Under the pieces are notes generated by a model, which had not been told where the DNA came from, did no database searches, and saw only the letters and a list, made by a program, of their open reading frames with translations. Positions 14,334-22,173 of a stretch of DNA of 64,000 nt are shown in pieces. Numbering within the stretch: the stretch's first letter is position 1; each line of letters opens with the position of its first letter. A program made the position numbers and the translations under genes. This DNA is from Planctomycetota bacterium (GTDB lineage Bacteria; Planctomycetota; UBA1135; GCA-002686595), in assembly GCA_016795245.1 (NCBI GenBank), contig JAEUIA010000015.1, positions 1 through 64,000 on the forward strand, written 5' to 3'.

Positions 14334-14449
14334 GTCGTGCTCGGGTAGCGCACGATAGGGGATCGCCGGGGCGACTGCGAGCACCCGCACGGGGCGCAGT
14401 CCGCAACTTTTGCTTGTCGATTCGCCGCGCGCCGGAGACAACAGGCGCC

Positions 14450-15907
14450 ATGAAGGCCTCGAACAGCGATTCGCAGGCGGCGTTTCGTGCGTTGCCCTCG
14501 GTCGACGAGGTCATGCGCGATCCGCGCGCCGTGGAACTCACACGGCGGGTGCCGCGCGAGATGGTGCAGATGTTCGCGACCGGCGCGATCGACGCGTGGC
14601 GCGAGGAAATTCGCACCCAGCGGCTCGCGGGTGGGGAGCTGGAGGCGCGCCTCGCGCGCGGCGATCTGTTCGCGGCGCTGGACGCGGCCGTGGCGCGCGA
14701 ACTCGGCCGCGGCGTCAAGCGCTGCGTCAATGCGACCGGCGTCGTGCTCAACACCGGCCTCGGGCGCGCTCCGGTGCACCCCGAAGCGGCGGCGGCGATG
14801 GCGCTCGCGGCGCGGTCTTATTGCGTACTCGAAGTCGATCGCGAAACGAACGAGCGCAATCAGCGTGACGACTACCTCGGCGATCTGCTCGCGCGCGCGA
14901 CGGGCGCGGAAGCGGGCATCGGCGTCAACAACTGCGCCGCGGCGGTGATGTTGATGTTCCAGACCTTCGCCGGCGGGCGCGAAGCGATCGTGTCGCGCGG
15001 CGAGCTGGTCGAAATCGGCGGCAGCTTCCGCGTGCCGGACGTGATGGCGCGCGCCAACGCGAAGCTCGTGGAAGTCGGTACCACCAACCGCACGCGCGTC
15101 GCGGACTACGAAAAGGCGATCAACGATCGCACCGGACTGTTGGTCAAGGTCCACACCAGCAACTTCAAGATCGTCGGGTTCGTCGAGGAAGTCGGTCCGC
15201 GCGAACTGGCCGATCTGGGGGTCAGGAAGAATGTCGTGACCGGCTTCGACCTGGGCTCGGGCCTGCTCGAGATCGCGGGCGCCACCGAACTCGCGAGCAA
15301 GCTCGGTGGTGAGCCGCTGGTCAAGGACGCGGTCGCGAGCGGCGTGGACGTCGTGTGTTTCTCCGGCGACAAATTGCTCGGGGGCCCGCAAGCCGGCCTG
15401 ATCGTCGGCAAGCGTGGCGCGATCGCGGCGTTGCGCAAGAACCCGATCTACCGCGCAGTGCGGCTCGACAAGGTGACGCTCGCGGGGCTGGAGAAGACGC
15501 TGGAGCTGTTGCGCGACGGCCGCGCCGATGAAATTCCGTCGCGCGCGCTGTTGAACCTGCGTGCCGACGAATTGCGCCCGCGCGCCGAAGCACTCGCGCA
15601 GGCTCTGGCGCGGATCGACGATCTGAAAGTGGAAGTCATCCCCGAGCGCTCGCAACCCGGCAGCGGTGCCGCGCCGGATGTCTTCCTGGACACCTTCGTC
15701 GCCGCGGTGCGCCACGCGCGCCTGGGTGCGACCGCCTTGTCGCTGGCGCTGCGCCGCAACGATCCGCCGGTGTTCACGCGCATCCAGGACGGAGCCGTGC
15801 TGCTCGACCCGCGCACCCTGCTCGGGGGGGACGAGGAAGACCTCGTGCGCGCCTTCTCGAACCTTGCGGGAAGAGCGCCGGCCGCCGCGCGTCAGCCCCG
15901 CGCTTGA
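14450..15907 (+). CDS. selA: L-seryl-tRNA(Sec) selenium transferase
   Basis: 485 residues, close to the usual SelA length. The family N-terminal domain (LPSVDEVMRDP) is followed by the PLP fold with NATGVVLNTGLGR, GVNNCAAAV, GFDLGSGLL and the PLP lysine K308 in SGDKLLGGPQAG. SelA converts seryl-tRNA(Sec) to selenocysteyl-tRNA(Sec) using selenophosphate. Its partners lie close by: selD at 19260 and tRNA-Sec at 22076; the elongation factor gene selB was not found in the window. The ATG at 14450 is preferred over the in-frame ATG at 14414, which adds a non-conserved leader. Its stop overlaps the TTG start of the next gene. Confidence 0.96.
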   Translation: MKASNSDSQAAFRALPSVDEVMRDPRAVELTRRVPREMVQMFATGAIDAWREEIRTQRLAGGELEARLARGDLFAALDAAVARELGRGVKRCVNATGVVLNTGLGRAPVHPEAAAAMALAARSYCVLEVDRETNERNQRDDYLGDLLARATGAEAGIGVNNCAAAVMLMFQTFAGGREAIVSRGELVEIGGSFRVPDVMARANAKLVEVGTTNRTRVADYEKAINDRTGLLVKVHTSNFKIVGFVEEVGPRELADLGVRKNVVTGFDLGSGLLEIAGATELASKLGGEPLVKDAVASGVDVVCFSGDKLLGGPQAGLIVGKRGAIAALRKNPIYRAVRLDKVTLAGLEKTLELLRDGRADEIPSRALLNLRADELRPRAEALAQALARIDDLKVEVIPERSQPGSGAAPDVFLDTFVAAVRHARLGATALSLALRRNDPPVFTRIQDGAVLLDPRTLLGGDEEDLVRAFSNLAGRAPAAARQPRA

Positions 15908-19259: not shown

Positions 19260-20327
19260 ATGGAAAGCAGCACGACAAAGCGCCTGACCGACTACGCCAA
19301 CTGCGCCGGTTGAGCGGCCAAGATGCCCATCGGGCAGCTCGCGCAGGTTCTGCGCGGCGTCAGCGGTGAGAAGGACGGACGACTTCTCGTGGGACCGGAG
19401 ACCTTCGACGACGCCGGTGTCGTCGAACTCGCGGGCGTCGAAGGTCTGCCCGCGGGGACCGATCTGGCGCTCGTCCAAACCGTCGATTACTTCCCGCCGG
19501 TCGTCGACGATCCCTGGTTCTACGGCGCGATCGCGGCCGCGAATTCGGTGTCGGACGTCTACGCGATGGGCGGGCGACCCTACACGGCGCTCAACCTGGC
19601 CGGCATCCCCAAGGATTTCGCGCCCGAGTGGACGTCCGAGATCTTTCGCGGCGGATTCGAGACCATGCGTAAGGCCGGCGCACTGGTCGTCGGTGGTCAC
19701 ACCGTTCAGTCGGCCGAAGCCATGTTCGGTTTCGCGGTCACGGGCTTCGTCGATCGGCGGAAGGTCACGACCAACGCCGGCGCGCGCCCGGGCGATGTCC
19801 TGTACCTGACGAAGAAGCTCGGCATGGGCGCGCTCACGACCGCCGCGAAAGCGCAGAAGATCTCGTGGAAGGAACTCGAACCCGCAGCCGTCCAGATGGC
19901 GGCGCTCAACGACACCGCCGCCCTCGCGATGAACGCCGTCGGCGCGCGAGCGTGCACCGACATCACCGGCTTCGGTCTGGTCGGTCACGCGCGCAACATC
20001 GCCAAGGGCTCGCGCCTCACCTTGCGCATCGAACTGGCGCGCACACCGATCTTCGACGGCGCGCTGGCATTGGCGCGCGCAGGTACGTTGTCGGGCGGCG
20101 CCAGGCGCGGGCGCGCGGCCTTGGGTGACGTCGTCGCGATCCGCGCCGGGCTCGAGGAGGCGCTCGTCAACCTGGTGTTCGACGCCGAGACCTCGGGTGG
20201 GTTGATGATCGCCGTCTCACCGGCCAAAGCCGCCGCGCTGGAGAAGGAACTCGCTGCGCGCGATCTGATCGTCGCGCGGATCGGCGAGTGCGTGCCCGAT
20301 ACGGGCAAGCTCGTCGAATTGATCTAG
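19260..20327 (+). CDS. selD: Selenide, water dikinase containing selenocysteine (UGA codon 18)
   Basis: 355 residues if the in-frame TGA at 19311-19313 is read as selenocysteine. A naive start at the ATG at 19323 would miss the catalytic site. The N-terminus reads TDYANCAG-U-AAK, aligning with the SelD motif HGAGCGCK: Sec replaces the catalytic Cys17, Lys20 is kept and the second Cys is Ala. Downstream motifs fit SelD: QTVDYFPPVVDDP, AANSVSDVYAMGG, GGHTVQSAE, DITGFGLVGHA and DAETSGG. The enzyme makes selenophosphate from selenide and ATP. An in-frame ATG at 19248 would add four residues. SelA and tRNA-Sec are encoded within 5 kb on either side. The GDPD-like gene follows after 12 bp. Confidence 0.95.
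19338..19358 (+). promoter_or_regulatory. Candidate bacterial SECIS hairpin in selD
   Basis: A 7-bp perfect stem, CGCGCAG / CTGCGCG, closes a GTT triloop at 19347-19349. The loop begins 33 bases after the UGA, within the 16-37 base range described for bacterial SECIS elements, and has G in the first loop position as the model asks. A second small hairpin (TGCCC-ATC-GGGCA) lies between it and the UGA. SelB would bind the loop to direct Sec insertion. Confidence 0.7.
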
Positions 20328-20339
20328 AGCCGCGCGCCG

Positions 20340-21836
20340 ATGGCCGAGAACGAGCGGAGCGAGACTCTTTCCAGAGCGCCGCTGTCGGTGGGACCGCCGT
20401 GGATCTTCGGGCACCGCGGCGCGCCGCTCGAAGCGCCGGAGAACACACTGGTGGGTTTCGAGCGCGGGCTCGAAATCGGACTCGACGGCTTCGCGTTCGA
20501 GGTGCGCGTCGCGCAGGGCAACGAGGTCGTCGTCTTCGCGGACACGAGCGTCGAGCGCACGACCGACGGACACGGGCACGTGGCGGAGTCGACGCTGCAA
20601 GCGCTGTCCGCGCTCGACGCCGGCGGTCCGTTCGACGCGCGCTTCAAGGGCGAGCGCATTCCGGTCCTGGAGGAAGTGCTCGCGATCGCACCGCTCACGC
20701 TGGAGCACGGGGCGCCTCAGCAGTTGATCCTCGTACCCGAACGTGGAGATGTCGCGCGCACGGTGGACGTCGCGCGTGAGTTCGCGCGTCACGCTTCGGT
20801 GCGCATCGCCTCGCGCGTGCGCGAGGCCTGCGCGGAAGTGCGCGATCTGGGGCTGACGCCGCTCTGGATCATCGACGAAGCCGGCGAGCACGAGTTGGAG
20901 ATCGCGCGTTCCGAACGCTTCGCCGCTGTCGGCGCACCGGTGCGGTCGTTCGTACGGAACGAACTGATCTGGCCCACGGAGCGCTTCGGATTGGAAGCGG
21001 ATGCGCCCGCAGATCTCCTCTGGGCGTGCCGCGAGCCGCTCCACGCGCTGGTGACGAACGAGCCGCGACGCGCCCTCGCCGCCCGCGCCCTGGCGCAACT
21101 CGCGCCGCAGGATCGCTCGCCCTGGCCGGTGCAGGTGCCGACTCTGGAGGTCGAACTCGGCGGAGCCGGGGCCCTGCGCGGCGATTGGAGCGGCGCGTGG
21201 AAGGTCGCAGCGCGGGTGCGCAATCCGTTCGGCTTCGCAGTGCGTGTCGCGTGCGCGCTCGTCCCGCGCCGCGGTGCCTTCGACATCACGGGCTTGCCTC
21301 AGAGCTTCGATCTGGCGGTGGGGGAGGAACGCGAAGTCCCGTTCGAGTTGTGCGGCGGTTCGTGGCGCATCGGCGGCGATCCGGTGTTCGTCGCGCGCTT
21401 GCGCTGGCGCGCCGGGCCCGGCAGGCGTGCGGGTGAGATCGATTTCGATGCTCCGCTCGCGCGTGTGCGCACGGTGCGCGCCGACGTGCTCGCGACCCGG
21501 CTCGTGCTCTTGCGCGAAGGGCCCCGCGACGCGCAGGCCTCGATGAGTTTGCGACGTCATCGACAAAGCATGCTCGTCACCGTCGAGAATCCCGGCGACT
21601 TGCGTGACGCGCGCGTCGTCGTGCACATCCTGGGTCGCGAATACACCGGCTCACGCGGAGTGCGCGTGCCGCTGCCGGACGACTTCGACACGCGCCTCGA
21701 GGCCGTGCCGTTCTCGTGCGCGTTGGTCGCGTGGCAGGACGGCGAACGCGTCGTGCGCCGCTTCGCCGGCGGAATCGGCCCCGAGATCGATCGCGGTTCG
21801 CCGGGCCGCCTGCTGCCGTTCGCGGCTGAACACTGA
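20340..21836 (+). CDS. Glycerophosphodiester phosphodiesterase-like protein, degenerate site
   Basis: 498 residues. The N-terminal region has the GDPD opening HRGAPLEAPENT (about 22-33) and the downstream ERTTDGHG, so the fold is recognisable. However, the metal and acid-base positions are changed: the usual E-x-D is EVR and the HD before the ERTT motif is AD. Hydrolysis of glycerophosphodiesters is therefore doubtful. The C-terminal half (about 260-498) is not GDPD and resembles beta-sandwich material; no family was recognised. There is no signal peptide. It follows selD by 12 bp and may be co-transcribed, with a large hairpin just after the stop. Confidence 0.7.
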   Translation: MAENERSETLSRAPLSVGPPWIFGHRGAPLEAPENTLVGFERGLEIGLDGFAFEVRVAQGNEVVVFADTSVERTTDGHGHVAESTLQALSALDAGGPFDARFKGERIPVLEEVLAIAPLTLEHGAPQQLILVPERGDVARTVDVAREFARHASVRIASRVREACAEVRDLGLTPLWIIDEAGEHELEIARSERFAAVGAPVRSFVRNELIWPTERFGLEADAPADLLWACREPLHALVTNEPRRALAARALAQLAPQDRSPWPVQVPTLEVELGGAGALRGDWSGAWKVAARVRNPFGFAVRVACALVPRRGAFDITGLPQSFDLAVGEEREVPFELCGGSWRIGGDPVFVARLRWRAGPGRRAGEIDFDAPLARVRTVRADVLATRLVLLREGPRDAQASMSLRRHRQSMLVTVENPGDLRDARVVVHILGREYTGSRGVRVPLPDDFDTRLEAVPFSCALVAWQDGERVVRRFAGGIGPEIDRGSPGRLLPFAAEH

Positions 21837-22075: not shown

Positions 22076-22173
22076 GGGAGCGGATCGGTGCTGGTGTGCC
22101 GCCCGGCCTTCAAAGCCGGTTGGGCTTCGTGAACAGCGGGGCCGGTGGGTTCGATTCCCATGCGCTCCCGCCA
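22076..22173 (+). tRNA. selC: tRNA-Sec (anticodon TCA)
   Basis: 98 bases including an encoded CCA. Acceptor strand GGGAGCG pairs with CGCTCCC; the eighth pair expected for bacterial tRNA-Sec is a G-G mismatch here. The D-stem has six pairs (CGGTGC / GTGCCG with two G-T), the anticodon arm is CCGGC-CTTCAAA-GCCGG with TCA, the long variable arm forms seven pairs (GGCTTCG / CGGGGCC) and the T-arm is GTGGG-TTCGATT-CCCAT. The long variable arm, six-pair D-stem and TCA anticodon together are diagnostic. It decodes the UGA in selD. Confidence 0.95.

Follow-up and report, generated by a model that had tools for sequence, protein, structure and literature searches.

Known SelD selenoproteins and the locus studied

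The SelD of Haemophilus and the Pasteurellales carries the motif GUGCK, in which the second Cys is kept. Its selenocysteine (Sec) occupies the catalytic position (PMC4561486), as predicted for the planctomycete SelD described here, whose motif instead reads GUAAK, with a Cys at position -3 relative to the site. SelD is among the most widespread bacterial selenoproteins (PMC1794560), and 19% of the SelD genes in a 2015 survey encode the Sec form, SelD-Sec (PMC4561486). The SelD of Aquifex aeolicus (PDB 2yye, 2zod, and 2zau), a predicted selenoprotein (PMC1242214), belongs to the same fold family and shares the motif G-[U/C]-A-A-K, in which Ala takes the place of the second Cys, but comes from a different phylum and has Ser at the position three residues before the site. 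For planctomycetes, the accessible part of a study on strains P1 and P2 reports Sec machinery, SelU, and several selenoproteins, and in that part SelD is listed as machinery and not described as a selenoprotein (PMC4807772). Since the SelD-Sec family and planctomycete selenoproteins were already known, the gene presented here has good support but falls within an established class. A preliminary description of the locus is confirmed in its facts but had implied more surprise than is warranted: SelD-Sec is well known, and the Ala is also found in A. aeolicus. The more unusual aspects are a selenoprotein-rich planctomycete family and a CxxU motif, which may matter more than SelD itself.

The window, i.e., the whole stretch of 64,000 nucleotides that was analyzed, is contig C64 of a 4.47-Mb planctomycete assembly comprising 136 contigs. 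Its named relatives comprise MAGs of the Planctomycetota as well as Pla163, whose genome (CP036290) is complete. The relevant features are as follows.

14414..15907, + strand: selA, L-seryl-tRNA(Sec) selenium transferase, start codon uncertain (TIGR00474, 484.5 bits)
19260..20327, + strand: selD coding sequence, 355 residues, predicted Sec at codon 18 (frame, TIGR00476 and Pfam matches, conservation, structure alignment)
19311..19313, + strand: in-frame TGA predicted to be read as Sec, catalytic site (kept in 33 of 36 other same-family genomes; Cys codon in more distant homologs)
19339..19357, + strand: predicted bSECIS hairpin of 8 bp, with a 7-bp core at 19340-19356 and the loop GTT at 19347-19349 (bSECIS constraints, covariation, synonymous null, fdhF-like apex)
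20340..21836, + strand: GDPD-like gene between selD and selC (Pfam PF03009; near selD in relatives)
22076..22173, + strand: selC, tRNA-Sec, anticodon TCA (Rfam RF01852, 73.9 bits; ARAGORN)
Elsewhere in the genome (G000): at least 10 further TGA genes on contigs C126, C62, C113, C133, C23, C90, C1, and C100 (loci L085, L105-L112, and L130)

The selD frame and its catalytic TGA

The extended selD frame runs from the ATG at 19260 to the TAG at 20325-20327, and the TGA at 19311-19313 (codon 18) is its sole in-frame TGA. As previously described, it opens 63 nt upstream of a second ATG at 19323, from which a start-to-stop ORF caller outputs an ORF of 334 residues. With the TGA translated as U, the protein reaches 324.9 bits with the selD equivalog model TIGR00476 (cut-off, 125) in an alignment beginning at residue 8, upstream of the TGA, and the AIR synthase-like N and C domains (PF00586 and PF02769) both score above their cut-offs. 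In alignments to PDB 3u0o (E. coli-type SelD) and 2yye, the U18 column coincides with the catalytic Cys and K21 with the catalytic Lys, and the continuation Ala-Ala-Lys is common to 2yye. The positions matched by U18 and K21 are those of the catalytic Cys17 and Lys20 of E. coli SelD. The preliminary description had placed the TGA at the Cys17 position and had read the second Cys of the motif as Ala, in agreement with these alignments. The SelD of this planctomycete very probably contains Sec at residue 18, judging from its sequence and those of its relatives, through a UGA recoding that would depend on the downstream hairpin. Ordinary gene callers would cut this gene short; the analysis fixes its true N terminus and its catalytic residue.

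Conservation of the TGA and of the upstream codons

The least improbable alternative, and still a very improbable one, is that SelD is translated solely from the ATG at 19323, so that the upstream frame with its TGA is a leader and the enzyme lacks its catalytic residue. This ATG is present and gives the 334-residue ORF of the automated caller, but the codons upstream of the TGA are under protein constraint. Across 41 family-level rows, the pairwise differences at codon positions 1, 2, and 3 amount to 0.158, 0.165, and 0.366 in the 12 codons that precede the TGA; they are 0.157, 0.113, and 0.333 after it and 0.722, 0.685, and 0.695 before the start codon. By this measure, the stretch ahead of the TGA evolves as a coding region does, and the lack of upstream conservation that had been named as evidence against a Sec codon is not what the relatives show. 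A start at 19323 is further contradicted by the SelD profile alignment, which begins at residue 8, by the Cys at the TGA site in other homologs, and by the ATG itself, which is not conserved and is replaced by Leu in many relatives (e.g., L019, L022, and L025).

The TGA is found in every same-family genome with a SelD match; the 3 of the 36 in which it was not seen have no such match, and 2 of these are only 65 to 67% complete. Genome G035 of the same family has no SelD match, yet contains a SelW-like gene with a TGA; the missing SelD is probably due to assembly incompleteness. In other families of the order, 22 of 24 genomes have the TGA and the other 2 the Cys codon TGC. Most SelD matches among the matches listed from a phylum draw of 294 genomes contain one TGA. 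When the residues at the site were tallied by a motif-score search, Cys was present in all 13 inspected relatives without the TGA, so that homologs with either U or C in this column, originally proposed as the supporting observation, do exist. On a tree of 96 SelDs, 3 to 4 changes between Sec and Cys are required.

A conserved putative SECIS hairpin

The selD hairpin fits the bacterial SECIS model with its four constraints (PMC13188914), having a 3-nt GTT loop, a stem of 7 to 8 bp, a distance of 33 nt, and a folding energy of -10.4 to -12.1 kcal/mol. Its core CGCGCAG-GTT-CTGCGCG (19340-19356) is extended by an outer U-G pair; the minimum free energy is -10.4 kcal/mol with 7 bp and -12.1 kcal/mol once the eighth pair is included. 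The loop is located exactly 33 nt downstream of the TGA, as the preliminary description had noted, which is close to the top of the range of 16 to 37 nt. Compared to the fdhF SECIS of E. coli, the apex GCAGGUCUGC of that element resembles GCAGGUUCUGC of the selD hairpin, but the loop-to-UGA distance there is 19 nt, i.e., 14 nt shorter, and the selD stem lacks the bulged U of fdhF.

Because the single-sequence folding energy of the hairpin does not exceed that of shuffled sequences (z scores of -0.13 and -0.79), the comparative data carry the claim. The hairpin offset stands alone within the gene: 88% of the 41 rows pair there, whereas the runner-up offset reaches 27%. Among 328 stem cells, 314 are paired, versus 235.7 ± 6.3 under synonymous recoding (maximum, 258 in 2,000), and 27 rows are fully paired, versus a mean of 2.0 under a synonymous codon redraw. 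Four of the eight stem pairs vary on both sides, a value that none of 500 shuffles attained. In the relatives, GC pairs are replaced by ACG/CGT (A-U), TCG/CGA (U-A), GCC/GGC (C-G), and CAA/TTG (A-U), and the outer C-G by CTG/CAG. None of the five measures used was reached in 500 shuffles, and slid structures are only 22 to 59% paired. On these comparative grounds, the putative SECIS hairpin is conserved with compensatory changes, far beyond the synonymous-codon null.

Selenium machinery and gene neighborhood

In addition to selA and selC in the window, the genome harbors selB on contig C59 (349.8 bits over both parts; cut-off, 242.25) and selU on contig C12. The genome thus carries selA, selB, and selC, as expected for a bacterial selenoprotein; an absence of selB, which had been suggested as a refutation, was not observed. 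In relatives with enough flanking sequence, selA often lies upstream of selD, and the GDPD-like gene, often together with the tRNA-Sec gene, follows downstream. The GDPD-domain protein of about 500 residues is a conserved neighbor of selD in relatives and is not known to be linked to selenium.

Decoding of the TGA as another amino acid, by a reassigned code or by read-through to Trp or Gly, would also account for a frame that is open across this codon. It is even less credible than a start at 19323: most of the clear neighboring genes end in an ordinary TGA stop, homologs carry Cys at the aligned site, tRNA-Sec with the anticodon TCA is encoded along with selA and selB, and the hairpin covaries. 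Since most clear neighbors end normally at a TGA, its decoding as Sec in selD must be local. That the TGA arose by faulty sequencing or by mutation of a pseudogene is conceivable in a fragmented assembly of 136 contigs for a gene with one internal stop codon, but this can practically be dismissed, because the same TGA recurs across dozens of genomes that were assembled independently, among them the complete one of Pla163 (L059). A leader-only frame, a code reassignment, and an assembly error were accordingly rejected on the basis of conservation, Cys homologs, covariation, and independent assemblies.

The frame, the conservation of the TGA, the conservation and covariation of the hairpin, and the genes for SelA, SelB, SelC, and SelU are established. 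In the proposed mechanism, SelB with GTP and Sec-tRNA(Sec), the product of SelA and SelC, would bind the GGU-apex hairpin 33 nt downstream of the UGA at 19311, and Sec would be inserted at residue 18 of SelD during translation. Sec18 and Lys21 are predicted to form the catalytic pair that converts selenide and ATP to selenophosphate, which would serve SelA in providing Sec for SelD itself and for other selenoproteins and SelU in forming selenouridine in tRNA. As selenophosphate would feed the Sec of SelD itself, the enzyme would depend on its own product. Such a self-dependent loop is also known from other bacteria, and it appears to be the rule in the planctomycete family studied.

A putatively selenoprotein-rich planctomycete family

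Five targeted family searches of the genome revealed at least 11 TGA genes including selD. The others with a TGA at the catalytic site encode FdhA (NRT-U-HAPS), two SelW-like proteins (CLQU and CTAU), one peroxiredoxin (TPGUT), five TlpA-like proteins (W-U-x-P-C), and one AhpD-like protein (CLFU). The thioredoxin family PF00085 added no TGA gene to those of PF00578. Scanning the window by codon usage for TGA-bridged genes proved insensitive, with the TGA of selD itself outside the top 25, and the scan therefore leaves room for further such genes in the window. With at least 11 catalytic-TGA genes, the genome exceeds the six selenoproteins that define a selenoprotein-rich organism (PMC5029168) and is counted as such. 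Its relatives in the family look similarly selenoprotein rich: 38 of 39 SelW-like matches have a TGA, and among the matches listed, roughly half of the AhpC/TSA proteins contain a TGA anywhere. The bacterial selenoproteome reviews consulted do not name the Planctomycetota as selenoprotein rich, and many redox enzymes are probably missing from, or truncated in, the automated protein sets of this lineage.

A GGU-apex hairpin, reminiscent of the E. coli fdhF apex, is located 17 to 33 nt downstream of the UGA in 8 of the 11 otherwise unrelated TGA genes, whereas the control rates are 2.4% for TGA triplets across the window and 4.0% for ordinary-gene codons; this enrichment is descriptive only, because the rule was formulated after inspection of the sequences. 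By the same rule, 3 of the 11 genes have no such hairpin. For the Planctomycetota, the result is a covariation-supported set of SECIS candidates with a GGU apex 17 to 33 nt from the UGA.

The CxxU motif

The SelD studied here has a Cys three residues before the predicted Sec (CAGU, 19302-19313). Among the inspected SelDs of the phylum, a Cys at position -3 is present in 73 of 88 Sec forms versus 1 of 13 Cys forms, an association confounded by shared ancestry because the Cys forms need just 3 to 4 changes on the tree. We tentatively consider, as a rather doubtful possibility, that the second thiol of Planctomycetota SelD has moved from position +2 (the E. coli-type CxC) to position -3 (CxxU) and that the pair could close a selenenylsulfide, which might serve to protect the enzyme, or to regulate it, in a lineage whose selenoproteome is unusually large. 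Sec forms have lost the Cys at -3 on several occasions, so that it is at most helpful, not essential. Two of the Sec-SelDs without it (L151 and L152) have a Cys at position +2 instead.
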